Below, in pieces: positions 32,697 to 53,697 of a stretch of 53,749 nucleotides of DNA (position 1 is the first letter of the stretch; each line of letters starts with the position of its first letter). The position numbers and the translations under genes were made by a program. The notes beneath the pieces were generated by a model. It had not been told where the DNA came from. It did not search any database and was given only the letters and a program-made list of their open reading frames with translations. Source of the stretch: a virus; the IMG/VR virus record IMGVR_UViG_3300031227_000062, positions 1-53,749 of that record, one strand, 5' to 3'.

Positions 32697-34565
32697 CTAC
32701 TTTTTTTTGTGCCAAACACCTTGAAGGGTACGTCCACGTTTACGTTGCACCAAACCCCTAGCCTCTACCGTTTTGTACACTCTACCATGCAGGAAACTAC
32801 GATTAGTCCCATACTCCTCTAAAATACAAGACTCGGAAGAAAGAATGTCCATCCAGTTACCATGTCTTAGAAGTCTTGCGCGTTTAGCATAATACTTAGG
32901 ATAGTACACTGATGGTACCGAAAAAAGCACTTGAGGGACTATACCCAACTGGTTTCGTATTTGTAGAGCTATTTCTTTATTGCCTAACTGTTGTAGTACC
33001 CCCATACTGGCGCAGACTGCAGGCATTGTCACGCCAGATCGATGGAGCACAGGGGGGTCTAACAAACCTTTGGTGCAAGATATTAACTTTGGAGCGTTCA
33101 CACCTCTGGCTGCAAGTTTCTCACGCGCAGTCTCCAAGTTTTCCGGTGCAACAATCCCTACAACCTCATAACCCCGCTGTATAAGACCCTTGTATAGAAT
33201 TCCTTCTCCTACACCCATATCCCAAACAGGCCCAGGTGCGGGTATTAGCTTTGTAAACCAATCAAAGAAACCAGTATGATCTGCAACTGTCTCATTAGGG
33301 GCGTTAGGTATGCGGCTGTTCCGAACGCTAGAGTCTGCAGGGCTAACACCCTCTATTATGTCAAGCAGTTTTCTCCCTACACTAGCAGGGCCATGTTCTC
33401 TTGCGAACCATTGAGCAGCCCGTTGCCCCTTCTGGTACGCTTCCTCTCTATGATTATACACCCAGCGCATCGTTTCAATTAGTTCATCCCAATCTGGGAG
33501 ATACCAGTTCCCTCCTAGTGGCGAGTCCTCTGTTTTACCTGTTTGAATTGGAAAGGTGTACTGTGGATCACACATCGGGATGAGTCCGGTATTGTTTGAT
33601 AGAATTGTGGGTAGCCCAGTAGCTATAGCTTCCCGAGGGGGCATTCCAAAACCCTCCCCTTTGGATGCAAACACCATAGCATCCGCGTTGTGCATCCAAT
33701 CTAACATCTTTTGAGGAAACCAATCGGCGCTGATAATGCTGACTCTTGGATCGTTACCTGTGCCTGGAAGCTGGTTTTCCCCCCAACCGAAATACCCCAA
33801 ACGGGTCTTGAATTCAAATCTAACATTAGGATATTGCTTCAGTGGAAACGCTTTTTTGAAGGCATCCAGAGTTTCCAAAGGGGATTTTCGCCCTGATAAT
33901 GTTCCAAAAGTGATAAAAGTGAACGTGTCTTTAGGTTCTCTCTTCGTTGCTGTATGATACATTGGATTGATTGACAGCGGCGACACCACTACTGGAGCAG
34001 TCACAAACTGTTCAAATACATCTTTACAATAACTACAAGGAACTACTAGCAAATCAACCTCTCCACAGTCATGCTTCCATTCAGGTAAGTTTACTAGCGG
34101 GTCGTCTGACTCGTACATGGTCAACCCTATTCTATAGGGAGTAGGTAGCTTCTTGAATTCTCCTGGAGTTGCCATACAAATGCCGACTCTGTGTGCTCGC
34201 TGTTCTGGCTTCCGCAGCATTGCTATAGTCTCAGGCAAAAGTCCCTCTTTGGACATGAACCAACATTGATTCACAGATATTTGACAACCCACGCTCGTTA
34301 GTGCATGTATCATGTTCTCAGCAGCAGTTGCGTAACCGTCTCCCATACTGAATGGGCTCAACCAGTAAACATGAGTTCCTTCAGGAGTCTTCCAAAGCAG
34401 ATCCTTAGAATCTTCAAGATCATCCAGATCGGCCTTTCGTCGTGTGTTCATCCAAATAGCGTCTAGGTAGCTGACTTCTTCCGGGACCTTCAACCAAACG
34501 CCCGGAAGAAGCCAACTTCCATGAGGAGCTACTTGTGTAACCCCTGTGCTGTTACGTACTCGCAT
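32697..34565 (-). CDS. Family 4 glycosyltransferase fused to a C-terminal methyltransferase-like domain
   Basis: 622 residues, ATG with a G-rich site upstream. Residues 60-390 are a GT-B fold: FSMGDGYATAAENMIHAL at the start, FITFGTLSGRKSPLETL in the hinge region, and FASKGEGFGMPPREAIATG (the E-x7-E motif). Residues 430-560 resemble a class I SAM methyltransferase (VWDMGVGEGILYKGLIQRG, motif I, then YEVVGIVAPENLETA). The last codons form an A8 run before the stop. Inserted between the major capsid and connector genes, the enzyme may glycosylate and methylate a virion glycan. Confidence 0.8.
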   Translation of the reverse strand: MRVRNSTGVTQVAPHGSWLLPGVWLKVPEEVSYLDAIWMNTRRKADLDDLEDSKDLLWKTPEGTHVYWLSPFSMGDGYATAAENMIHALTSVGCQISVNQCWFMSKEGLLPETIAMLRKPEQRAHRVGICMATPGEFKKLPTPYRIGLTMYESDDPLVNLPEWKHDCGEVDLLVVPCSYCKDVFEQFVTAPVVVSPLSINPMYHTATKREPKDTFTFITFGTLSGRKSPLETLDAFKKAFPLKQYPNVRFEFKTRLGYFGWGENQLPGTGNDPRVSIISADWFPQKMLDWMHNADAMVFASKGEGFGMPPREAIATGLPTILSNNTGLIPMCDPQYTFPIQTGKTEDSPLGGNWYLPDWDELIETMRWVYNHREEAYQKGQRAAQWFAREHGPASVGRKLLDIIEGVSPADSSVRNSRIPNAPNETVADHTGFFDWFTKLIPAPGPVWDMGVGEGILYKGLIQRGYEVVGIVAPENLETAREKLAARGVNAPKLISCTKGLLDPPVLHRSGVTMPAVCASMGVLQQLGNKEIALQIRNQLGIVPQVLFSVPSVYYPKYYAKRARLLRHGNWMDILSSESCILEEYGTNRSFLHGRVYKTVEARGLVQRKRGRTLQGVWHKKK

Positions 34566-42102: not shown

Positions 42103-42672
42103 ATGTCTAAAAAGACTGTCCCTGTCAGTAAAATTTGTCCTGTCTGTAAGAAAGAGTTTTTTGTATGCCCACCCGGACGATCTAGTAGATATTATGCACC
42201 TAACAAACAAGTTTGCTGTTCTCGTACTTGTGCTTTTAAAGGGCGCTTCCGTCGTAGCCAGCAGTGTAAGCTACTTTTACCTACTGAAGCTTCATATATC
42301 GCAGGCTTCCTAGACGGTGACGGTTCTATTATGCTCTATAAGAGAGAACGTAAAGCCGCATTAAGAGTGTCTTTTGCTAACTGCAAACGTGAGATCCTTG
42401 ATTGGATACTGCTTAAAACTGGTGTAGGTAACGTAATTGAGAAACCTATTCATGATGCAAAACATAAACCAGCTTTCCTACTCTTTATAAACTCTGGTGC
42501 TGCATTATCTTTACTCGTACAGCTACTACAATATCTCACTATCAAGCGGCCTCAAGCAGAACTCGCTATTTGGTTCCAAGAGCGCAAAAGTGATCCAGCT
42601 ATTAGCTCTAAGACAGATTGGCAACGGAAGGCTAAAGCTAAAATGCAAAGCCTAAATCGGCGGGGCAGATAA
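42103..42672 (+). CDS. Free-standing LAGLIDADG homing endonuclease
   Basis: 189 residues, ATG with GGAAGG upstream. An N-terminal zinc-finger-like part (CPVCKKEFF, then VCCSRTC) is followed by SYIAGFLDGDGSI (residues 64-76), the LAGLIDADG motif, and YKRERKAALRVSFANCK as the following DNA-binding strand. Only one such motif is present, so it should act as a homodimer. It is antisense to all surrounding late genes and has its own promoter. It probably cuts phage genomes lacking it and spreads by repair; no intron boundaries are seen. It splits gene 41520-42005 from 42688-43275. Confidence 0.9.
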   Translation: MSKKTVPVSKICPVCKKEFFVCPPGRSSRYYAPNKQVCCSRTCAFKGRFRRSQQCKLLLPTEASYIAGFLDGDGSIMLYKRERKAALRVSFANCKREILDWILLKTGVGNVIEKPIHDAKHKPAFLLFINSGAALSLLVQLLQYLTIKRPQAELAIWFQERKSDPAISSKTDWQRKAKAKMQSLNRRGR

Positions 42673-43286: not shown

Positions 43287-43412
43287 CTATTTCTTTCCAA
43301 TGGGGACACCGCGAGGACCGTTGCCCTTACCGCGTCCTAGTCCCTGACCCTTGCCACCACTCCTGATCTTGCCTCCTGGACAGGATGGATACGTTGTTTT
43401 CTTCTTAGCCAT
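43287..43412 (-). CDS. Small basic Gly/Lys-rich protein
   Basis: 41 residues, ATG at 43412 overlapping the end of the aminotransferase gene by 8 bases and with a clean TAG stop. It reads MAKKKTTYPSCPGGKIRSGG and then GKGQGLGRGKGNGP with a GKK end. Net charge is very high. A conserved-looking Pro-Gly-Gly-Lys-Ile-Arg-Ser core suggests it is real. It may bind nucleic acid or capsid, but no function is known. Confidence 0.55.
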   Translation of the reverse strand: MAKKKTTYPSCPGGKIRSGGKGQGLGRGKGNGPRGVPIGKK

Positions 43413-44583
43413 TATCAGCGACTCCTTTACTGATTTCTAACGAGTATTTTACACAATGCCGAATCACTTCACAAACCCTAGCAACGTCAGCTTGATTCAT
43501 AGCCATTCCAGTAGGCAGAACAATAGTTCTACTAGCCACCTCCTCTGTCCTTGGGAGCTCCCAATGTCGCTGGCTGTAAGGTCTTGCTTCGTGACAGGGA
43601 GGTGAAAAGTACCGCCGGGCTAAAATGTTCTCTGCCCAAAGCGCTTTTGCAAGCGTATCAGCAGATAATCCCTCTTTCAATACTTCTATGACAACATATT
43701 GATAATTGCTATTCCCTCCTAAAGGATACACCCTAATGCCAGATATGTCAAGTCCTTCAGAGTAAATAGTAAAGTTAGCATAGTTATGATCAATAAATGT
43801 AGGCACACCAGTAAGGTTCATCACGCCTACAGCGGCGTGTAATTCGCTTAGTTTAGCGTTAATGCCTAGTCCGTATACAGAATGATCCCCAGGTTTATCG
43901 CCAGCGAAACCGAAATTGCGTAATTCTCTAAGTTTCAGAGTTAAACTGGGACTATTTGTGGTTATTGCACCGCCCTCAATGCTGTTGAAGAACTTTGTTG
44001 CATGGAATGAAAAGACCTCACAAGCTCCATAATTTCCTATTCTATCCCAGCTAGGTCCACAGAGAAAAGCATGTGCAGCATCAAAGAACAGAGGCAATCC
44101 GTGTCTCCCTGCGATCTCAGTTAGTTCCTTGGGGGCACAGGGGGTACCCCACACATGTACTCCTAATATCCCGACAGTACGATCGGTAATTTTCTTCTCT
44201 ACATCGATGGGATCAAGCACGTGTGTTTTTGGGTCAATGTCCGCAAAGATTGGCGTGTACCCTTGCCAGGCCAGTGCGTGTGGAGTAGCTATAAAAGTGA
44301 AAGATGGCATGATCACCTCGCCGAGCTTTGGCATTAACGCTCTAGCAGCAATCATCAAACCCAAGGTACCGTTAGCTACAGCCACACTCCAAGGTACCGA
44401 CAGTTTATTACACAATTGAGCCTCGAACTGCTGTACCTGCACTCCATTGTTGGTAAGCCACTGACTCTCTAGCACGCTCTTAAAAACTCTTAATAGCATA
44501 TCGTGGTGTACCATGTTAGGGCGGCCCACATGCTTGGGCTTTTCAAACGCTGGTTCGCCACCAAAGATAGCTAGTTTTTTCAT
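43405..44583 (-). CDS. DegT/DnrJ/EryC1/StrS-type sugar aminotransferase
   Basis: 392 residues. PLP enzyme of the DegT group: Lys197 in FSFHATKFF forms the Schiff base, FFDAAHAFL holds the Asp168 that binds the pyridine nitrogen, and IMPSFTFIATPHA and GILGVHVWGTP complete the cofactor site. It transfers an amino group to a 3- or 4-keto nucleotide sugar to make an amino sugar. The next gene is a hexapeptide acyltransferase, the usual partner that acylates the new amine. It is transcribed with glycosyltransferase genes on both sides. The exact sugar cannot be told. Confidence 0.85.
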   Translation of the reverse strand: MKKLAIFGGEPAFEKPKHVGRPNMVHHDMLLRVFKSVLESQWLTNNGVQVQQFEAQLCNKLSVPWSVAVANGTLGLMIAARALMPKLGEVIMPSFTFIATPHALAWQGYTPIFADIDPKTHVLDPIDVEKKITDRTVGILGVHVWGTPCAPKELTEIAGRHGLPLFFDAAHAFLCGPSWDRIGNYGACEVFSFHATKFFNSIEGGAITTNSPSLTLKLRELRNFGFAGDKPGDHSVYGLGINAKLSELHAAVGVMNLTGVPTFIDHNYANFTIYSEGLDISGIRVYPLGGNSNYQYVVIEVLKEGLSADTLAKALWAENILARRYFSPPCHEARPYSQRHWELPRTEEVASRTIVLPTGMAMNQADVARVCEVIRHCVKYSLEISKGVADNG

Positions 44584-44586
44584 GTC

Positions 44587-45162
44587 TTATCCTGTATCCG
44601 CCTCTAATGTTGGGGGCATAGATGTTTCTAGCATTCGCCTTCGGTATATCTCTTGTTCAAGCAGCTTCTCTAGTTCTAAGACACGCTCTTTAGGACGTTC
44701 TCTTATATATCTAACAGGACTCCCAGCGTAAATAGACCACGGCAGCAAAGTAGTGTTTTGTAACACTAGGGACATAGCACCTACAACGACGCCATCAGGT
44801 ATAAACACGCCAGGTAGAATGACTGAGTTAGCACCAACCATGCAGTGCCGACCAATCTCTACCCGAGAGCGGATTGCTACCCTAAAAGGAGCTGGAATAG
44901 CTGCGCCTAACAAACTTGCTCCTGAAATGTCCTCTGTCCCTGTGAAAATGCGTACTCCACTGGACAGAGTAGAATAGTCGCCTATGGAGCACTCTCCACC
45001 ACCTGTTATGGATGCAAACGACGCAATATGCACATAATTGCCCAGGAGGGTCCATCGCTTGCTAACAATGAACACAAAGTCATCTATGATGATATTATGC
45101 CCCCAAACGATGTTTTCAGGGTATGCTAGTTTTGCTAAAGGGAATATCTTATTGTCTAGCAT
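44587..45162 (-). CDS. Left-handed beta-helix (hexapeptide) acyltransferase
   Basis: 191 residues from the ATG at 45162 (GGAG nine bases upstream), overlapping the preceding glycosyltransferase by 14 bases; a TTG at 45177 is the alternative. Hexapeptide turns are clear: NIVWGHNIIIDDFVFI, IASFASITGGGECSIGDYS, VEIGRHCMVGANSVILPG and VVVGAMSLVLQN, with PWSIYAGSP and a C-terminal amphipathic helix. This is the fold of sugar N-acetyl- or N-acyltransferases. It probably acylates the amino sugar made by the aminotransferase encoded next to it. Confidence 0.8.
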   Translation of the reverse strand: MLDNKIFPLAKLAYPENIVWGHNIIIDDFVFIVSKRWTLLGNYVHIASFASITGGGECSIGDYSTLSSGVRIFTGTEDISGASLLGAAIPAPFRVAIRSRVEIGRHCMVGANSVILPGVFIPDGVVVGAMSLVLQNTTLLPWSIYAGSPVRYIRERPKERVLELEKLLEQEIYRRRMLETSMPPTLEADTG

Positions 45163-46210
45163 GAAGAAGCACTCCAAATCTAGTAACCCACTGCTGCGCT
45201 AATACTGTATAATCATGAACTTGCTCTTCAGCTTGTGCCTGCAATTGTATTTTGTACAATTCAGGATTTAGCAGGAGATCACTAGCTGCATTTGCAAAAG
45301 CTAGTTGCCATTCTCCCTTACGCGGGACAACAGTACCGGTGCGCCCTTGAATTACTCTCTCTGGCAAAGCGCTTAGATCAGTAACAACTAGCGCGTTTCT
45401 TGCTGCAGCACACTCCATAGCCGCCATACAACACATCTCAGGAGATGCAGGACTACCTGGGAGTAACATCACCTGGCTCTGTAACTGCTCTTCAATAAGC
45501 TGATTTCTGGGAACATATCCCAAATAGGTGATCCCTTCAACTCCAGTTATACCAACATCTGTAGCCCCAACCCAGAAGGGATCCCCAAGGTGTATCCCCC
45601 ATAACTCCATACCGCCTGTAACGTGTAATGTAGCCCAAGGTACTCTCTTACGGATCAAGGGCCAAATTGTAACTAGAGAGCGTAAACCACGCTCAGGCAC
45701 ACTACAGTAAACACACCTACCACGTACTTTAGATAAACTGCGCCTACTGTAGCCTAAATAATGAATACCTGCATTGCTCAACAAGTACAGACTCTCATCT
45801 ATAGGGTGCTGCTGTTGAAAACGTGCCTTCTGATGCTCACTGATCACAATAACTAATTGGACATCTCCTGCACTGACATAGGCAGGTAAGTTAGGGATGG
45901 CTGGGTCGCAACAAAAGATAGCTTTGACAGGGGCGACCATACCCTTAAGAGCATTAGGAAAACGCAAAGCAATAACTACGTCAAATTCCTCGTTGAATCG
46001 TTCGGGACCCTCGATAGTTCGCCATTCCACACCCCTATGCTCATGTGCATGAGTCCCAGGGATATAGATACGTACATTGTGCCCTAACTTTGCCAAAGCA
46101 AAAGCATACTGCACCATCGCACCCTCGGAGCCCCCGTCGTCACCCATATCGTAAGATCTGCCTGAGAAGTGTGCAGGTCGGCCTGTCTTGTATACAAAAG
46201 CTATGCGCAT
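45149..46210 (-). CDS. GT-B (family 4-like) glycosyltransferase
   Basis: 353 residues. The N-terminal domain has RIAFVYKTGRPAHFSG, GSEGAMVQYAFALAKLGH and VVIALRFPNAL; the C-terminal domain has YLGYVPRNQLIEEQLQSQVM, LLPGSPASPEMCCMAAMECA and ARNALVVTDLSALPERVIQG. This is the GT-B plan with the sugar-nucleotide site in the second half. It is coupled by overlaps to its neighbours. It would extend a glycan using the modified sugar or a common nucleotide sugar. Confidence 0.75.
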   Translation of the reverse strand: MRIAFVYKTGRPAHFSGRSYDMGDDGGSEGAMVQYAFALAKLGHNVRIYIPGTHAHEHRGVEWRTIEGPERFNEEFDVVIALRFPNALKGMVAPVKAIFCCDPAIPNLPAYVSAGDVQLVIVISEHQKARFQQQHPIDESLYLLSNAGIHYLGYSRRSLSKVRGRCVYCSVPERGLRSLVTIWPLIRKRVPWATLHVTGGMELWGIHLGDPFWVGATDVGITGVEGITYLGYVPRNQLIEEQLQSQVMLLPGSPASPEMCCMAAMECAAARNALVVTDLSALPERVIQGRTGTVVPRKGEWQLAFANAASDLLLNPELYKIQLQAQAEEQVHDYTVLAQQWVTRFGVLLHARQ

Positions 46211-47220
46211 TGGTCCTTCTTTCTCAAAAGTACAGACGCCACTTGGACGTTCACTCCCTTAGCGAATACTGGGGGCGCTTGAGCCTTAATAGGCCAATCA
46301 TTCCAATCATTTCTAGCAAAGTCTGCTGGCTGACAAAGAGTGGCAATATCTCTAAAGGGGGTAACTAGACGAGCATAAACCGAGCTCTCATCATAAATAC
46401 GTCGTCCAGTAGTTTTACCGGGATACTCTTCATACCCTTTACCAAAATCAAAGGTGATTGCCAATAACCCATTAGGTTTCAACACTCTTAGCATCTCTGA
46501 AACAGCTTTGCCATCCTCTGGAATATGCTTAATGCAAGCCGTGCAAATAACGTCGTCAAAACTGTTGTTTTCAAATGGAAGATTAGTTGCATCCGCCGCT
46601 TGAACGTGTATTCCTGGTCCCGGCTTGATCTGTACTGTACTGATATCTATGGCAGTAACGGAAGCTCCCATACTCGATAGATAGGTAGGGAGTATACTTT
46701 CCCTGGTACCAACATCTAATATCTTGTGATTTTGTACAACCCCCAAGAAGATTGTGGCTCTGATATGCTCCCATTGGCGCATTAGGGGCATTTTATTGTC
46801 CCCAAAACCCTTAAGCGTAGCTGATTCTTTAGCGAAGCAAAACTCTCGAAAGTCCTGCTCTAAGTAGCCCCCCGAGACACAATCAAGATCGATCCAAGGT
46901 CTAAGAGTTGACATCCAATTCACCTTATTTATATGGCACTCATCCGCCGCGCCTCCGAGATGAAAATCAGCAAACTGTACCCAAACTCGCCTCTTGCCTT
47001 CTCTCCACCAGTTGGCAAGACGGTGCCAACCATCTAACACTACCAGGCAATGCTTACAGATGATGATAGGAGACGCTTCTAATTCTCCACTATGATACTT
47101 TCTCACGCCAGACCAATCAGTGCATGGATGGCACCTGAAGTTGATCCACTCGATAGGCCACAACCTGGCCTCAGTGACCTCTATTTCAGCACCGTCGTAC
47201 ATTGCTCTAGGCATGATCAT
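46201..47220 (-). CDS. ParB-like domain fused to class I SAM methyltransferase
   Basis: About 339 residues from the ATG at 47220; the frame is open to 47346 and several ATGs lie inside the overlap with the upstream gene, so the start is uncertain. The N-terminal part has ASPIIICKHCLVVLDGWHRL (then ANWWREGKRRVWVQF), similar to ParB/Srx-like nuclease or kinase folds. The C-terminal part is a methyltransferase with KILDVGTRESILPTYL (motif I), VTAIDIST, ADATNLPFENNSFDDVICTA and LRVLKPNGLLAITFD. It may methylate a sugar or small molecule; the ParB-like half could phosphorylate or bind a nucleotide. Confidence 0.7.
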   Translation of the reverse strand: MIMPRAMYDGAEIEVTEARLWPIEWINFRCHPCTDWSGVRKYHSGELEASPIIICKHCLVVLDGWHRLANWWREGKRRVWVQFADFHLGGAADECHINKVNWMSTLRPWIDLDCVSGGYLEQDFREFCFAKESATLKGFGDNKMPLMRQWEHIRATIFLGVVQNHKILDVGTRESILPTYLSSMGASVTAIDISTVQIKPGPGIHVQAADATNLPFENNSFDDVICTACIKHIPEDGKAVSEMLRVLKPNGLLAITFDFGKGYEEYPGKTTGRRIYDESSVYARLVTPFRDIATLCQPADFARNDWNDWPIKAQAPPVFAKGVNVQVASVLLRKKDQCA

Positions 47221-47962
47221 ACTGGCGATATTGTTTTGGTATTGGAGCTCCATGCTTTCGGAATATGTAGGGCATCGATTTTTTGTGGCTGTCCAAAAAT
47301 GCTTTATTTCTCTTGTGCCATTGATGGTACCCTGTAATGTCGTCACATGTTAGCAGGTGATACCCAGCATCCGTTAGACACCAGCCAAAATCGCAATCGT
47401 TAGCATTTGCCCCTGGAATGAGCTCATCCCAACCGCCCACGTCATGCCAAGCCTGTAGAGGAATAATCACATTAGCACCTAAAATAGCTCTACAGGACGG
47501 CAAGAGTTTGTAGTCAAACCAGTTCTTTCCATGTACTCCTAGTCGGTGATCTGCCCTAGCTTTAGAGCGGTCTCCTGACTTTGGTATCCAATCGTACCGG
47601 CCTGCTAATACCCGCTTACGATACTTGGCGATGTGCCTATAGGCGTTCTCAATAGCGTCGGGAGAGAATAGAATGTCCCCATCTGTGTACCAAATGTGGG
47701 TGGTTGCTCCAGGTACTGCTTTAGTACCTATATTCAATGTGGCTGCTACCCCAAGTGGGAGAATACCTCCAGTGAACACATGCCTTACATGAAAGGCACG
47801 ACTGTTCGCAATAGATAGTGCCCTAATTGGGTCTGTACTAGCATCATCTGCAACGACTAGAGTGAAGTCTCTCCTAGTTTGTAGCGACCATGCTTTGATC
47901 GATTCTTGGACGTGGTCTATTCGGTTGTGAACTGCCATAACTACACTAATATGTTTAACCAT
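47207..47962 (-). CDS. Family 2 glycosyltransferase
   Basis: 251 residues from the ATG at 47962, with GGAGG 12 bases upstream and an 8-base overlap with the preceding gene; the longer frame to 48073 would overlap it by 119 bases. It begins KHISVVMAVHNRIDHVQESI, then LVVADDASTDPIRALS, IWYTDGDILFSPDAIENAYR (Asp-Gly-Asp) and a C-terminal region with GANVIIPLQAWHDVGGWDEL (then GANANDCDFGWC). This is the GT-A fold of chain-extending enzymes. It resembles the second half of the preceding gene. Confidence 0.8.
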   Translation of the reverse strand: MVKHISVVMAVHNRIDHVQESIKAWSLQTRRDFTLVVADDASTDPIRALSIANSRAFHVRHVFTGGILPLGVAATLNIGTKAVPGATTHIWYTDGDILFSPDAIENAYRHIAKYRKRVLAGRYDWIPKSGDRSKARADHRLGVHGKNWFDYKLLPSCRAILGANVIIPLQAWHDVGGWDELIPGANANDCDFGWCLTDAGYHLLTCDDITGYHQWHKRNKAFLDSHKKSMPYIFRKHGAPIPKQYRQYDHA

Positions 47963-49748
47963 CTGACTTTGGGCCTCCTTTGAAACTAGGGGTGATATAG
48001 ATATCATCGCCTTCGCCCCATATTTGTAATCCAACTGACGCCAAATCGTGTTTTGCAGCGATATAATGGACATTTTCTACAAGCGTCTGACGATTGGCCA
48101 CCTGATTTCTATCATGATACACATGATAGCCATGTACCAACCTGGTGAAGATGACAGGATATCCTGCAAGTTGGGCTCGAATGCTTAACTCACAATCTTG
48201 TCCTCCATGAGTGACCATATTTTCATCAAAGCCTCCTAATTCAGTATAGATATTCCTTGGAAATAGCAACACATCAGCGAAAAGTGCAGCAGCATACTGC
48301 GTTTGTGGGGCACCCTCAAACAGTTCTGGAGAATCTAGCACTCTAGGGTCGGTCCCAATAAGCCCTTTGGTACGCCCCCCAAATTGAGCCGGGGGCAACG
48401 TGCCCTCTACGATCTTGTCCCAATTGGTGTAGATATCATAGGGCCGGATGTGCATTGGGAGCATCCAATCATACTGTCCTGCAATTATAGCCTGCGGATT
48501 AGCCAGCCGCAAGTTATTAAGGTGCTCTAGTGACGTAGGCTCTAATAGGATATCTGACCCCAAGAGCAAGAACGCATCTCCACGAGCGATCGCACAACCT
48601 CGATTGTATGCTAACGATGCTCGATAACCTTTATGAGGTTGCCAACGATACTGTATTGCAAAGCGGTCTTGAAACTCTAATAGCACACCAAGAGGGCTAT
48701 CTACTGAACCATCGTCCGTTACAACTACTTCAATTGGTGCATGATAGTGTTCTAGATTCCGATCGAGAGCACACAGAGCAAGATATAGATTGTCGCGCCT
48801 GTTGTACACAGGCAAAACCACTGAAAGAGAGAAGTTACTGGGCTTAACTGCACGTACAGGCTCCAATGCAGCGGACTGCACAGGAACCTGCACAGGGGGG
48901 ATAATCTCTACCGGTTCGTGCGTAGCTATTGCAGGTACTGATACAGGCGTTCCATCGGACATTGTTGGAGACAGATTGAACAGATGCTCATCGCTGCTGT
49001 AACCTACAAATTGACTTCTCAGACGCTCACGGTTTTTTAGGGAATACTTCTCAACCCACTCAACGCCCGATCCGTGCTCATAGTGATATAGTGTAGCTTT
49101 GGGCTGGTAAATTACTTTATACCCAGCTTCTCTAACCCGCCAACAAAAGTCGATGTCCTCGAAGTTGCCCCCTGTGTAGCCCTCGTCGAGACCTCCGAAG
49201 TCATTCCATATGGAGCGCCGAATTAGCGCGCAAGCGAAGGTGATAGCGTTAAGTTCTCTACGTTTAGCTGCATTAACCGAATCGGCTGGTTGGTTTCGGA
49301 ATGGGTGATAGGGCATACCGTCTACCGTTCGCGCAACCCCAGCGTGCTGTACCGTTAAGCGAATGCCAGGCTCCTTCGTATCAGGATAGAGCAAGCGAGC
49401 TCCTACAATACCTACGTTAGGATCATTGTCTAGTTCTTCAGCCATAGCCTGTAGCCAACCTGGTAGCGGTTCAATATCTGAGTTTAGTAGACAGACGTAC
49501 TCTGATGGCGGTATCTGAGCTACTGCCCAGTTGTTTATCTCAGCATACCCTTTTCTTGTGCGCATTTTGAAGACAGTGGCCAACCCTTTCTCAACAAGTT
49601 CATCCAAATAGTCCTGCAGCTCAGTCTGCGGAGAGCAATCATCGGCTATGTAGATGGTGTGCGGGCGCATAGTACGCTCGACTAAGGCTGGAATACATCG
49701 TTTTATGTGATGTACTCCATTGAACGTAGGAATAACAATAGGTATCAC
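47955..49748 (-). CDS. Tandem-domain family 2 glycosyltransferase
   Basis: 597 residues from the GTG at 49748, which has AGGGGGG directly upstream; a TTG at 49766 is the alternative. Domain one (1-270) reads PIVIPTFNGVHHIKRCIPAL, IYIADDCSPQTELQDYL and LLNSDIEPLPGWLQAMA. Domain two (330-590) reads LSVVLPVYNRRDNLYLALCA, VVVTDDGSVDSPLGVLLEF, LLLGSDILLEPTSLEHLNN and DENMVTHGGQDCELSIRAQL. Two GT-A domains in one chain usually build a repeating disaccharide. A Pro-rich linker separates them. It lies directly after the large terminase gene. Confidence 0.85.
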   Translation of the reverse strand: MIPIVIPTFNGVHHIKRCIPALVERTMRPHTIYIADDCSPQTELQDYLDELVEKGLATVFKMRTRKGYAEINNWAVAQIPPSEYVCLLNSDIEPLPGWLQAMAEELDNDPNVGIVGARLLYPDTKEPGIRLTVQHAGVARTVDGMPYHPFRNQPADSVNAAKRRELNAITFACALIRRSIWNDFGGLDEGYTGGNFEDIDFCWRVREAGYKVIYQPKATLYHYEHGSGVEWVEKYSLKNRERLRSQFVGYSSDEHLFNLSPTMSDGTPVSVPAIATHEPVEIIPPVQVPVQSAALEPVRAVKPSNFSLSVVLPVYNRRDNLYLALCALDRNLEHYHAPIEVVVTDDGSVDSPLGVLLEFQDRFAIQYRWQPHKGYRASLAYNRGCAIARGDAFLLLGSDILLEPTSLEHLNNLRLANPQAIIAGQYDWMLPMHIRPYDIYTNWDKIVEGTLPPAQFGGRTKGLIGTDPRVLDSPELFEGAPQTQYAAALFADVLLFPRNIYTELGGFDENMVTHGGQDCELSIRAQLAGYPVIFTRLVHGYHVYHDRNQVANRQTLVENVHYIAAKHDLASVGLQIWGEGDDIYITPSFKGGPKSDG

Positions 49749-49758
49749 GATCCCCCCT

Positions 49759-51588
49759 CTAGGCAAACATAACTGGAACGAATATCTTTTTCGGCTCTGG
49801 AATTGTTTCTGGATCTACACCGGCTGCTATTGCTGCAGCAACCTGCATAGCATGAATCTTATTCTCTGCTAAAGCGTCGTATTTTGCATATGGATCCGTC
49901 TCATTAGGCGCAAGTAATCCAGCATTTGGGGCTCTACTAGGCGTAAATTCGTGCGCCTGAGCTTGGATTAACTCTGTAGATATCTGTGCCTCCCAGCCTT
50001 TAGCTAGGGTTCGGCAACCTTCTAGAGCATCCAGTCCGTCGTCGTATGCGCCCATCGGCCACTCGGTCAGCTCTTTCTTGAGCTCTGTCTGTCCATCTTC
50101 CAAGATTAACAAATAGCCGTTAAGAAGGTCCGGCTGTAGGGAATCAATGCGCATTTTCTTATTAGATAGCTGGTTATATGGCTCTACCGGTAGATAAATG
50201 CCCTCTTCCATAGATCGGCGTGCTGATTCCGTTGCAAACAACGCCTGGAAAGCGTTTTTTTCGATTCTCCAACGAGCAATAGGATATTGTTTGGCATGTT
50301 TGTTCTGCGCATTGATGATTTGATTCGGAGGGCGCCGTTTGATATCTGCAACGATGGTAAACATTTGCCGGGTGGGTGCTTTAGCAACCAGAATGATTGC
50401 TGAAAAGTCTGATCTAGTGGTAGATCCCATACTGGGGTCAGTAAAGCCAAATATAGCACACGTACTAAGCTCGACTGCAGGCGCACCATCGGTGGGTACC
50501 AACCATATGCTTGCTGTTTCCTGTCTATGTTCCATGCGGAAGGTTTGCCACTCCTTGAAAAGCCTACTTTCTGGGTCTACAGGCTCATTCTGTAACTCTG
50601 TAGCGAATGTAGCAGAACCGCCTGATACTCTAGTAAGCATCAAATCATAGTAGCTAAAAGCCTCCGGCCAGGCGGACTCCGCGCCCTTGAGCATATCGGC
50701 CTTGTTCTGAACAAAGAAGGCATGAGCTGTCTTCTCCTTATCGGGGTCGGCAATGTTGGTAACTAACTCGGTCCATTGATCCCACAAGTCTTGATTCTCA
50801 GCCCAAGATACCACAGCACGGTATAGCCTGGAGTGGAACATAGGGTTGGCTTCAAGATTTTTGAGCAGACAATCAAAGTGGAGGAAGTTGCCTACCACGA
50901 ACACCTTAGTATCAGACCAACCGGCGTTCATAACAGAGCGCCAGAACCATTTGCGGTGGGCCTCTCTTCGAGTTGCCGACTGGACCCCTTCTAGGTTCTC
51001 CGAGTCGTCTACAATAATCAGGTCTGGGCGGTACTGCAGGAACTTGCGTCCTCGTATCTTCATTCTTGCGCCCAAGGCGATTAGCTTCACCCTGTTGGCA
51101 GTGGTGATATCGTCCTCTTGCCACTTTGCACCCTGGAGATCCCCGAAGTCCTCCTTGATGCGGTCGTTGTGCTCTATCTCATCTTTGATAGTAGCAAGCT
51201 GTTGTTTGGCCTGGGTATGTGCGTCTGAGATGATTACAATGAACCGGCGCTTTTTAAAGCAGACGGTCCACAGGGGGAGGGCCAACGTGGTTGTAGTCGT
51301 TTTACCGAAACCACGAGGCCACACTAGAGCGTTATTGACCTTGCCTGGGGCAGCCATTGCGCTCTGCATAGTACGATAGGTCTCTTTGTGCAAGGGTGCA
51401 GGTGTGCAATCGAAGTGGTTGGGTAGGTAGAATCTGGCAAAAAACTCAAGATCTATCTCAGCCAGCAGCATCCACAGCTCTTGAGCAGGTGGCCTATCAA
51501 GATGGCCGCTCTGGGCCAGAGCCTCTAGCGAAAAGTTCCGCTGAAGGGCCTCTCGTATAAGAATGAGGTCATTTGTAGTTAGTTCCAT
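49759..51588 (-). CDS. terL: Terminase large subunit
   Basis: 609 residues. The ATPase has Walker A PRGFGKTT (residues 91-98) and Walker B LIIVDDSE (190-197); the C-terminal RNase H-like nuclease has FTDPSMGSTTRSDFSAIILV and AYDDGLDALEG. It packages DNA into the prohead through the portal. The ATG is two bases after the stop of a short ORF and has no strong ribosome binding site. Its stop TAG is followed at once by the glycosyltransferase gene. Length and motif order are normal for the family. Confidence 0.92.
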   Translation of the reverse strand: MELTTNDLILIREALQRNFSLEALAQSGHLDRPPAQELWMLLAEIDLEFFARFYLPNHFDCTPAPLHKETYRTMQSAMAAPGKVNNALVWPRGFGKTTTTTLALPLWTVCFKKRRFIVIISDAHTQAKQQLATIKDEIEHNDRIKEDFGDLQGAKWQEDDITTANRVKLIALGARMKIRGRKFLQYRPDLIIVDDSENLEGVQSATRREAHRKWFWRSVMNAGWSDTKVFVVGNFLHFDCLLKNLEANPMFHSRLYRAVVSWAENQDLWDQWTELVTNIADPDKEKTAHAFFVQNKADMLKGAESAWPEAFSYYDLMLTRVSGGSATFATELQNEPVDPESRLFKEWQTFRMEHRQETASIWLVPTDGAPAVELSTCAIFGFTDPSMGSTTRSDFSAIILVAKAPTRQMFTIVADIKRRPPNQIINAQNKHAKQYPIARWRIEKNAFQALFATESARRSMEEGIYLPVEPYNQLSNKKMRIDSLQPDLLNGYLLILEDGQTELKKELTEWPMGAYDDGLDALEGCRTLAKGWEAQISTELIQAQAHEFTPSRAPNAGLLAPNETDPYAKYDALAENKIHAMQVAAAIAAGVDPETIPEPKKIFVPVMFA

Positions 51589-51838: not shown

Positions 51839-52405
51839 TTACCGTTTATTATCTGTGATCTGGATACCAGTCATTTCAAACATCAGGGCACGGAGAGTGG
51901 GCACAGGGGCTCCACTGGCTAATGTAGTCGTTTCGCCTTGTGGTAGGGCGGTAGCACCTTTCATAGGCAGAGCACCGATCGATTGCTGAATAGCGACAAA
52001 CTCTCGGAGCATTTTCCAGTAGGCGGCGATGGCTGTATCCAAGTATGGAATCCGTTCGAGACGTGATTTCTCTATGTTTATTACCGCACCCATGCGGTCT
52101 GAAGACAACCGCAATAAGCGCTCCATTTCACCTAGCGCATCAACTTTGATAGAGAGATTGTTATATTTTGCTTGCAGAATGGACATTTCAAGAATGTCAT
52201 CCGCAGGAATGCTATCGAGGTACGTATAGATGTCAGCAACAGGTATGATGACGTTCTTGGTTTCCCGCATGAAAGAGAAGATCCTTGGTGGAGACCAGCA
52301 GGAACACAAAAGCTCCCTAACCTCCTGTTCGTAGGGAGCAATGCTCTCGGGAACAGCGAGAGGGACAAGCGCATTATTTTCTGCGTCTAGGATTTCGACT
52401 TTCAT
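51839..52405 (-). CDS. Possible terminase small subunit
   Basis: 188 residues. Residues 25-75 are helical with APYEQEVRELLCSCWSPPRI and an ADIYTYLDSIPADDILEMSI segment; residues 80-135 form a second helical block, and the C-terminus ends MTGIQITDNKR. Gene order (just before the large terminase in transcription) is the main argument for a small terminase role. No clear helix-turn-helix motif can be pointed to, so it may be another packaging accessory. Confidence 0.5.
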   Translation of the reverse strand: MKVEILDAENNALVPLAVPESIAPYEQEVRELLCSCWSPPRIFSFMRETKNVIIPVADIYTYLDSIPADDILEMSILQAKYNNLSIKVDALGEMERLLRLSSDRMGAVINIEKSRLERIPYLDTAIAAYWKMLREFVAIQQSIGALPMKGATALPQGETTTLASGAPVPTLRALMFEMTGIQITDNKR

Positions 52406-52426: not shown

Positions 52427-52708
52427 TTAGTCAGGCTGCTCTGAGAGCCGCCAGCTCGCAAAAGTATCTGCTATTGGTACACAGCCCATACCACCGTGTA
52501 TAGAGTTGCCGTAGTGATAGCAAACAACCCCTGCCTGCCAATCAACTACTCGCAATATCGGCACACCGTGCTTTACGCCGTTCTCCCATCGTGGGTAGAT
52601 TTTCGTTAGAGTCATTTGGGTGTCAGTGGCAGGCTTAGTGTTAGAGTCTGGTATACATCCACAGACCATAATCAGTATCAAAACAATCAAGGCCAATCGG
52701 TTTCTCAT
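52427..52708 (-). CDS. Lipoprotein
   Basis: 93 residues from the ATG at 52708, which has AAGGA upstream and overlaps the preceding stop (ATGA); an ATG 24 bases upstream has no site. The N-terminus is a lipoprotein signal: MRNRLALIVLILIMVCGC with a short basic head, a hydrophobic core and a lipobox cysteine. The mature part contains two further Cys and YHYGNSIHGGMGCVPI. Phage lipoproteins often act in superinfection exclusion or lysis. It is the second gene of the late operon, an uncommon place. Confidence 0.7.
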   Translation of the reverse strand: MRNRLALIVLILIMVCGCIPDSNTKPATDTQMTLTKIYPRWENGVKHGVPILRVVDWQAGVVCYHYGNSIHGGMGCVPIADTFASWRLSEQPD

Positions 52709-52932
52709 TTTCCTTGCTCCGGCGGGTTCCATTCATTCCATCTGCTACAACTTGGACAGTGAACGTATATGCGGCCATCTTTGAAAACAGCTACTCGATC
52801 TAGTGTTTGCATAAATGCTGCAGTAAGGTCTTTAGTTAGAACGGCTCCACACATTATACAGCACCATACAGAGGCCACAGCAGGGTCAGTTTCTACAGCT
52901 CTATATGCGGCTACGAATTCTGGGTCCTGCAT
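52705..52932 (-). CDS. Zinc-ribbon protein, first gene of the late operon (conservative start)
   Basis: 75 residues from the ATG at 52932. Two pairs, CCIMC and CPSC, about 35 residues apart form a likely zinc ribbon, with DGRIYVHCPSCSRWNEWNPP at the end. GAGGAGGT lies 13 bases before this ATG, rather far. The frame upstream stays open and looks coding (HEEVLKRWMQDPEFVAAYRA continues through the ATG), so this is probably only the C-terminal part of a longer gene. See the next entry. Its stop overlaps the lipoprotein ATG. Confidence 0.6.
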   Translation of the reverse strand: MQDPEFVAAYRAVETDPAVASVWCCIMCGAVLTKDLTAAFMQTLDRVAVFKDGRIYVHCPSCSRWNEWNPPEQGK

Positions 52933-53151
52933 CCACCGTTTCAGTACCTCCTCGTGTGTGATATTTCTCTTGGGCGACGGCGGCTCGGGCTTGGGCGGAT
53001 CCCACCAAAAGTCAGGCGGGGGGCGCTGGCTCCCATTAGTAGCAAACCAACGATCATCATATGCCCTTACACACTTTTCAACATCATCACCCCAACGTGC
53101 ATAGATGCAACTCCCCCGGACGGGCTATTGCTCATTAGGTCTTTGCCACAC
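52933..53151 (-). other. Upstream coding-like frame of the first late gene, with in-frame TAG
   Basis: The minus-strand frame that enters the ATG at 52932 is open from 53124, and reads ARWGDDVEKCVRAYDDRWFA then RPPPDFWWDPPKPEPPSPKR. It holds no ATG, GTG or TTG. Eight codons further upstream, across a TAG at 53125-53127, a GTG at 53149-53151 follows GGGGGG (53156-53161) and reads MWQRPNEQ. The simplest reading is one gene of 148 codons with an amber codon at position 9, either read through, mutated or a sequence error. Confidence 0.5.
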
Positions 53152-53172
53152 AATTCCCCCCTTTAAGACATC

Positions 53173-53293
53173 AGCGGCTGGCGGGAATTGCACCCGCCAT
53201 TTACCCTAGCGCCGCTATCTAGCAAGCCCTGACTCGGGCTGATCCTGCTACGGCGGTGGGCTGGAGTTGCACCAGCCGTGCCTTTGCACCGCC
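53173..53293 (-). ncRNA. Structured 5' leader of the late operon: two matching hairpins with T-loop-like loops
   Basis: In the leftward transcript the first hairpin (53252-53293) has an outer 7-bp stem GGCGGTG/CACCGCC, a 9-base bulge on the 5' side, an inner 6-bp stem GGCTGG/CCAGCC and the loop TGCAACT. The second (53173-53216) repeats the plan: AGCGGC/GCCGCT, a 12-base bulge, GGCGGG/CCCGCC and the loop TGCAATT. Between them a third hairpin (53220-53250) pairs TAGCA/TGCTA and AGCCC/GGGCT. The loops fit the U-N-N-A-A rule of T-loops. Function is unknown; antitermination or translation control are the best guesses. Confidence 0.5.
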
Positions 53294-53321
53294 CATTTGT
53301 GCCTTCCCAGGTAATACACAT

Positions 53322-53350
53322 AGTATAGCACAGGTTGAGTGGGAATACAA
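53322..53350 (-). promoter_or_regulatory. Leftward late promoter with extended -10
   Basis: On the minus strand TTGTAT (53345-53350) and TATACT (53322-53327) are 17 bases apart, and TGC directly before TATACT gives an extended -10. Transcription would begin near 53315 and enter the hairpin leader. It is the best promoter upstream of the 39-kb late operon. Confidence 0.65.
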
Positions 53351-53697
53351 GGCGCGGTGGAAGGAGACGAAATAGTTGCACTAAATGTACACATTGCTAA
53401 AAGTTGCTGGAGTTTGTGAGAGAGAGGCCATACCGCTTTCAGCACCCCACCCCAGTTTTTATCACTCGCTTACTGTTTATACCTGCTATCACACATACAT
53501 GCGGACATGATACCATTACCTTGCACTCGACCAGCTCAAAGACATTATGTAAATAGAACAAATGTAGTAGGCATATATACCTAGACGCCTAGGCCAAAGA
53601 GCCTAGAGAAATATAGGTAAAATGGCGGATGTGAAAATGGCCACGCTATGGTAGGATGTGAATGCAATGATCGATACACTCAAATGAAAGGGGCAAC
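53351..53697. other. Divergent intergenic control region
   Basis: No gene is supported here. There are three CCTAG elements (53580-53584, 53588-53593, 53602-53606) enclosed by TACCTA/TAGGTA, which may be operator boxes before the rightward gene at 53698. A weak promoter-like pair TTGCAC (53521) and TATGTA (53546) has poor spacing. No other repeats or RNA genes were recognised. Confidence 0.35.

Follow-up and report, generated by a model that had tools for sequence, protein, structure and literature searches.

The 53,749-nucleotide viral DNA analysed here (IMG/VR record IMGVR_UViG_3300031227_000062, positions 1 to 53,749, hereafter the window) raises the question of what two hairpins of the same architecture do at the head of a 39-kb leftward operon. 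A first-pass annotation had proposed that they recall the put RNA of phage HK022, which makes polymerase resistant to terminators, and that the leader might be a new antitermination or translation-control RNA. Our analysis points elsewhere: structurally, the two hairpins are very probably minimal mimics of the tRNA elbow, and they belong to a family that recurs in many other phages.

Leader of the leftward operon

The leader (53350–53150, minus strand) contains a probable promoter, the two hairpins of the same plan with a third hairpin between them, a strong ribosome-binding site (RBS) and a GTG start codon at 53151. The probable promoter (53322–53350, minus strand) has the form TTGTAT-17 nt-TATACT, with a TGC directly 5′ of the −10 box making it an extended −10 promoter, and we infer a transcript start near 53315. 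The assignment, which the first-pass annotation had also made, draws support from a relative (L005) whose large terminase is 77% identical to that of the window and whose counterpart promoter, TTGCGT-17-TATACT, shares its layout, its 17-base spacer and its TGTGCTATACT; on the other side, 53350–53322 was absent from the matches of a consensus promoter scan. In L004 and L005, a like promoter (at about 4452) lies approximately 7 bases before the start of the gene preceding the large terminase, which in L005 is the counterpart of window 51839–52405, a gene with no Pfam or PHROG match. Because of this short distance, an almost leaderless transcript lacking the tRNA mimics is predicted for L005, and the 65-kb L005 record gave no match to model R1, with which we searched for the elements.

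Downstream of the leader, minus-strand genes for terminase, sugar modification, portal, major head and tape-measure proteins follow, in agreement with the earlier view that the leader heads a long leftward operon. Glycosyltransferase, methyltransferase and aminotransferase genes lie between terminase and portal (43405–49766, minus strand), with another glycosyltransferase gene after the major head gene (32697–34565, minus strand), and these sugar genes appear to be as for a surface-sugar pathway. Inside the operon, an HNH endonuclease open reading frame (ORF) occupies the opposite strand (42103–42672, plus strand).

The first gene after the leader (52705–53151, minus strand) is preceded by an AGGGGGG RBS and consists of a GTG, eight codons, an in-frame TAG and then 139 open codons. 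This 139-codon part carries two Cys-x-x-Cys pairs, has no ATG, GTG or TTG near the TAG and gave no PHROG match. Reassignment of the stop codon throughout the genome was ruled out, as TAG ends 14 of the 41 listed window genes; since TAG is thus an ordinary stop elsewhere in the window, that of the first gene may be read through, or may close a leader peptide.

Architecture of the two hairpins

Element 1 (53252–53293, minus strand) is formed by a 7-bp outer stem (53293–53287 with 53258–53252), a 9-nt bulge on the 5′ side (53286–53278) that includes a D-loop-like A53283-G53282, a 6-bp inner stem GGCTGG/CCAGCC (53277–53272/53264–53259) and the loop TGCAACT (53271–53265). Element 2 (53173–53216, minus strand) repeats this plan with a 6-bp outer stem (53216–53211 with 53178–53173, and a U-G pair outside it), an 11-nt bulge (53210–53200) including A53207-G53206, a 7-bp inner stem TGGCGGG/CCCGCCA (53199–53193/53185–53179) and the loop TGCAATT (53192–53186). 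The two match model R1 at 34.6 bits (E 7.6e-8) and 52.4 bits (E 1.8e-13), respectively, both sequences being part of the seed of that model. The third hairpin lies between them (about 53250–53220, minus strand; fold z −2.5). The earlier description of two hairpins of one architecture (53293–53252 and 53216–53173), separated by a third, is therefore accurate, and both loops obey the T-loop rule, as had been noted.

Folding energies gave z scores of −1.8 and −2.2 for elements 1 and 2, with 10 and 6 of 200 shuffled sequences folding as well. The complete 221-nt leader reached no more than −1.2, a value that 25 of 200 shuffles equalled or bettered. Taken by itself, folding energy carries little weight; it is the combination of features that exceeds chance. 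The opposite strand of the leader was rejected as the functional one: it folds similarly, but its loop is not a T-loop. Neither Rfam nor ARAGORN returned any tRNA in the window, leaving both copies unrecognised, and tRNA was not among the three Rfam matches found at E ≤10 in 52900–53500, where matches to Plastid-ycf2 and snoR28 were discarded as weak and below cut-off. Within the window's own lineage, the search for homologous leaders returned only identical or near-identical contigs, plus L005, which has no element.

Relatives in other phages

Pattern scans of viral contigs for the inner stem and loop returned at least 119, 50, 9 and 51 stretches in overlapping sets; the loop TGCAAYT was found in 51 stretches, compared to none when the loop was reversed as a control. 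Relatives do exist in other phages. A descriptor scan free of any rule for the bulge gave 47 matches in 1.31 Mb of retrieved loci and none in one shuffle. Since most of these loci had been retrieved through a TGC T-arm, which shuffling destroys, the fair part of the 47 consists of the 11 TTC-loop matches outside tRNA-array loci, copies that no scan had asked for and that are nevertheless present in the same contigs. After removal of seven matches overlapping ARAGORN tRNAs, 48 descriptor matches were left in 1.72 Mb. When the loop was loosened (T..RA..) and the outer stem made stricter, 35 matches were obtained, true tRNAs included, 31 of which had loops starting with TGC or TTC, compared to 5.2 matches per shuffle with scattered loops over five shuffles.

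Many of the pattern matches depart from the short-bulge form. Among 107 distinct ones, 87 had a fully paired inner stem, and when their flanks were shuffled for comparison only 19 of these 87 had an outer stem at p ≤0.05; the others were hairpin-in-bulge forms, T-arms whose outer stem was unclear, true tRNAs and chance matches in genes. Five loci (L019, L042, L046, L102, L109) have a T-arm, GGTAGG-TGCAATT-CCTACC, that likewise shows no obvious outer stem and is followed within a few bases by an apparent intrinsic terminator. Bacterial and archaeal chromosomes were rejected as the home of the family: one pattern gave 31 stretches in 257 Gb, of which 28 lie in stop-free frames of at least 100 codons, and one of the 31 is identical in sequence to L110. 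A single phage record can carry several copies, with four R1 matches in one record and three in each of three others. Rfam scans of the window, 18 loci and 18 further loci yielded only tRNAs and Glutamine-II riboswitches, none of them on an element, and no Rfam 15 family reached its cut-off on an element in these sequences. Nor was the family found in the literature searched, which covered titles and the beginnings of abstracts of open-licence papers.

Elbow contacts and helix length

Positions 18 and 55 of tRNA touch each other. We compared the corresponding bases in alignment A6, which comprises 33 matches to model R1 and was reduced to 31 rows for the elbow count by dropping two partial rows without outer stems. 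Elements with TGC loops had AG in the bulge in 16 cases and GG alone in none, whereas all 11 elements with TTC or TCC loops had GG (Fisher p 8e-8, leaving out four ambiguous AGG rows with TGC); R1 had been seeded with both TGC and TTC kinds, so this sample is not blind. The unconstrained list of 48 matches follows the same rule with exceptions: the TTC loops of L153 and L056 are accompanied by AGG, which fits either class, and neither AG nor GG is clear in L026, L139, L142, L209 and L220.

The same rule was seen in true tRNAs. ARAGORN identified 152 tRNAs in the retrieved loci, mostly in phage contigs and some in bacterial ones, and among those that could be parsed, a TGC T-loop was accompanied by AG in the D-loop in 49 of 52 cases (GG in 3), a TTC T-loop by GG in 75 of 78 (AG in 1, other in 2) and a TCC T-loop by GG in 5 of 5 (p 1.5e-30, with nine odd T-loops set aside, identical sequences counted once and relatedness uncorrected). 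True tRNAs of the tRNA-bearing loci, including L121, L083, L024, L095 and L131, often have TGC with AG instead of TTC with GG. Because elements and true tRNAs follow the same AG/TGC and GG/TTC rule, the elements keep the tRNA elbow in the same two dialects. Comparison shows that the one-sided bulge supplies a D-loop-like AG or GG that covaries with the T-loop in the manner of tRNA positions 18–19 with 55–56.

Used by itself, MAFFT did not bring the elements into register. A6 was fitted to a structure-favouring model, and its related rows were not down-weighted; with this alignment, 96.3% of 380 cells are paired, two-sided changes number 127 compared to 32 after shuffling, and the covariation score is 0.82 compared to 0.16 shuffled and at most 0.16 slid. 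The covariation that had been read from the window's two copies, with pairing kept despite changes in the stems, extends to the family. No A6 row lacks the closing G-C pair, C56 or A58, and in all 31 full rows AG or GG stands early in the bulge, features that R1 favours; the first AG or GG follows the outer stem by three bases in 19 of 31.

For helix length, 31 of the 48 matches were kept after 4 redundant ones (L014, L096, L028, L032) and 11 loci were dropped by hand, the latter being the tRNA arrays L024, L121 and L131, the coding or weak matches L139, L142, L209, L026, L043, L151 and L220, and the bacterial L196. The stacked helix measures 10 bp in 1 element, 11 in 8, 12 in 14 and 13 in 8, placing 30 of the 31 at 11–13 bp, with both window copies at 13. 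Comparison shows that outer and inner stems stack into a helix of about 12 bp like the acceptor and T stems of a tRNA. The terminal pair shows no G-C bias (6 G-C, 9 A-U, 5 U-A, 1 C-G and 10 unpaired). In a set of 33 elements, reached by dropping 10 redundant or weak rows from the 43 elements used for placement (below), CCA was found near the 3′ edge in 1, compared to 55 of 146 tRNAs, and TT within three bases after the element in 18, against a background of 13% and 31 of 91 CCA-less tRNAs; the window copies are followed by neither TT nor CCA.

Placement among genes

The position of the elements relative to mechanically called ORFs was determined for 43 elements, a set that leaves out the window's own two along with L024, L121, L131, L139, L142, L209 and L196 and adds four elements of L226. 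An upstream ORF was within reach of 36. In 27 of these, the element starts −14 to +12 from the stop codon of that ORF, a count that becomes 20 of 28 once redundant and weak rows are removed; in some relatives the stop codon falls inside the element itself. The next start codon lies 20 to 368 nt downstream in 36 elements, at a distance of 20–60 nt in 21. By eye, a plain hairpin follows just after the element in several related loci, as it does in the window.

Genes adjoining an element encode ribonucleotide reductase, amidoligase and a single-stranded DNA (ssDNA)-binding protein, with a DNA polymerase gene 322 nt further on; one element has a minor head protein on one side and a scaffold protein on the other, and other elements have integrase, terminase and helicase genes no more than about 2.5 kb away. 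With 14 of 20 neighbour proteins having a PHROG match, this association with non-late genes led us to reject late-gene specificity, and the special link to late operons that had been expected was not supported in the viral-contig search.

Capsid leaders of cyanophages

From 1354 phage records matching a capsid query, 14 cyanopodovirus capsid-gene regions were taken, and 8 of the 14 have a T-arm upstream of the capsid gene. The leader of S-TIP37 (TTCGATT with TGG) matches R1 at E 1e-6, those of P-SSP7, P-SSP2 and S-CBP42 at E 0.002 to 0.005 and those of Syn5, S-CBP2 and S-SBP1 at only 0.14 to 0.29, with Syn5 fitting the plan by eye and by descriptor (outer stem GGTAG/CTACC, TGG in the bulge, loop TTCGATT). 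The eighth T-arm is that of NATL1A-7, where a genuine tRNA-Gly (L242:2225–2295) stands just 5′ of the capsid gene, at the site that in its relatives is occupied by the mimic or by another hairpin.

This other hairpin, with the loop CACCTCAGAGTCGGA, takes the place before the capsid gene in 5 of the 14 cyanopodoviruses, and a script found neither it nor a T-arm before the capsid gene of P60. It consists of a variable paired stem closing an invariant GCACCTCAGAGTCGGAC (L236, L238, L239, L246, L247 and loci from L249 on). The loop CACCTCAGAGTCGGA was found in at least 120 viral contig stretches, and the retrieved loci contain 111 distinct sites, mostly about 110–160 nt before a long capsid-like ORF (judged by eye outside the five named phages); where an upstream ORF was present, the distance from its stop codon to the start of the hairpin was 2 to 18 nt in 34 of 76 cases. 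Twenty loci from the scan for this loop gave no R1 match at E 0.1, the hairpins of the five named phages gave no Rfam match, and the letters of the loop were not found in the open-licence literature searched. Glutamine-II riboswitch aptamers were seen in 8 of the 14 cyanophage capsid-gene regions (L235, L237–L239, L242, L244, L246, L247).

Comparison with known RNAs

The element shares with transfer RNA (Rfam RF00005) an acceptor stem stacked on a T stem, the T-loop, the D-loop contact and the AG/TGC and GG/TTC dialects, but it has no anticodon arm, D stem or CCA, and the window bulges are only 9 and 11 nt long. The tRNA-like domain of tmRNA, which has a D-loop without a D stem, a T-arm and an acceptor stem, is similar in all three respects; however, no tag ORF or pseudoknots were seen, and ARAGORN found no tmRNA in the window. 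In the RAGATH-21 consensus (RF03097), too, UAG follows the outer stem, and a hairpin with UGCAAUU directly adjoins the 3′ strand of that stem, but the stem is longer and there are extra hairpins; with element 2 scoring 16.1 bits against an Rfam gathering cut-off of 70.3, assignment to this family was rejected. Phage T7 has intercistronic RNase III sites, and these, like the elements, are intercistronic hairpins in phage operons; T7's are processing sites with another fold and another enzyme.

RNase P model substrates such as AT1, along with phage and other mRNA substrates, combine an acceptor stem, a T stem and a T-loop at a 12-bp distance (PMC11143913, in part), as does the element, a putative substrate that differs in having no 3′ RCCA. 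HK022 put is a V-shaped RNA of roughly 70 nt with two stem-loops and an RNA triplex in the first stem (PMC9378689, in part), and the window leader resembles it in placing two hairpins after a phage promoter. The leader does not appear to be the put sequence, as had been noted earlier, and by eye its secondary structure also has a different layout from the published description, in which, as far as the passages drawn on extend, no tRNA elbow is described for put (PMC9378689, in part).

Candidate functions of the elements

The explanation we favour, at a probability of roughly 0.4, is that the elements are tRNA-elbow mimics read by RNase P-type enzymes and that they punctuate or protect mRNA. 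Host tRNA-processing enzymes, RNase P in the first place and perhaps RNase Z on the 3′ side, would recognise the elbow fold together with its helix of about 12 bp and cleave the phage transcript at the element's edge. Where elements lie between genes, such cuts would punctuate polycistronic mRNA, as tRNAs do in mitochondria; in the window leader, about 20 bases would be lost from the 5′ end, giving an mRNA that starts with a stable hairpin just 5′ of the first RBS. According to a review, RNase P gauges a conserved distance of 12 bp between the T-loop and the 5′ end and cleaves model hairpins made of an acceptor stem and a T-arm; interference is seen at G19, G53 and A58, and T4 gene 32 mRNA and other phage RNAs are among its substrates (PMC11143913, in part). 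The RNA of RNase P stacks on the tRNA elbow (PMC13254310, in part). The T-loop, G19, A58 and the 12-bp measure are present in the element and the 3′ RCCA is absent; it is because the element keeps just the features that RNase P recognises that cleavage by this enzyme is the first choice. We also count the genuine tRNA-Gly in the element's place in NATL1A-7 in favour of this reading. Against the RNase P reading stand the missing 3′ CCA, which helps many RNase P enzymes, together with the lack of a terminal G-C bias; the stop codon inside some elements, where cleavage at the 5′ edge would deprive the message of its stop codon; the fact that L005 does without the element; and the restriction of the window lineage to identical or near-identical copies.

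Overlap with stop codons would be harmless if the compact fold instead acted uncut, at a gene end or the start of a leader, as a barrier that blocks exonucleases or Rho and stabilises the neighbouring message. We regard such a barrier as unlikely though the nearest competitor: the placement of 27 of 36 elements at −14 to +12 of a stop codon would suit a 3′ barrier, as would the second hairpin seen by eye after the element in a number of loci, but a plain hairpin would suffice for the purpose, leaving the kept contact between D-loop and T-loop and the 12-bp length unexplained, and the window element sits in a 5′ leader, a place where a barrier of the 3′ type would have little to protect. In a role in translation, the mimic would contact the ribosome or a tRNA-binding factor and so control re-initiation, or initiation at the following gene. 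This would fit the many elements that occupy the space from a stop codon to the next RBS, with the start 20–60 nt downstream in 21 of 36, and the L1 stalk of the ribosome is another partner that stacks on the tRNA elbow (PMC13254310, in part). Against it, the spacing between element and next start ranges from 20 to 368 nt, and we consider this role rather improbable.

The put RNA suppresses termination by way of the zinc-binding domain of the RNA polymerase β′ subunit. Antitermination in its manner, with leader RNA binding RNA polymerase so that terminators are ignored over the long operon, had been the main idea of the first-pass annotation and now seems quite improbable. Two hairpins just after the promoter of a 39-kb operon do recall putL, which lies just downstream of PL (PMC9378689, in part), but position is all that speaks for it: the architecture of put differs (PMC9378689, in part), the relatives lie inside operons, mostly at upstream stop codons and beside non-late genes, and the tRNA-like features would go unexplained. 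Least probable of all, in our judgement, is that the elements are decayed tRNA genes, now functionless; the elbow dialect shared with true tRNAs of the retrieved loci and the true tRNA at the same site in NATL1A-7 would agree with such an origin, but pairing has been kept through 127 two-sided changes, the elbow rule is obeyed and several copies occur in one record.

Returning to RNase P-type enzymes, similar folds between genes in many other phages suggest that viruses may use fake tRNAs to mark sites where mRNA is cut or protected. More tentatively than for the elements taken by themselves, we propose that many phages may punctuate their mRNA at stop codons with miniature tRNA mimics read by host tRNA-processing enzymes, that these mimics and the true tRNAs of such phages share an alternative elbow with A18/G55 in place of G18/U55, and that in cyanophage capsid leaders the mimic may be exchangeable for a whole tRNA or for an unrelated hairpin with an invariant 17-base loop.

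tRNA-like structures inside messages have been known one by one. The elements described here are a recurring, multi-copy family of tRNA-like structures in mRNA that matches no Rfam 15 family in the sequences scanned. The culturable cyanophages S-TIP37, Syn5 and P-SSP7 make this family directly testable, and the paired change at positions 18 and 55, common to the elements and to true tRNAs, is a natural experiment on how a tRNA elbow is built and read. If our reading is true, the elements would represent a general way for phages to shape their mRNA through the tRNA enzymes of the host.
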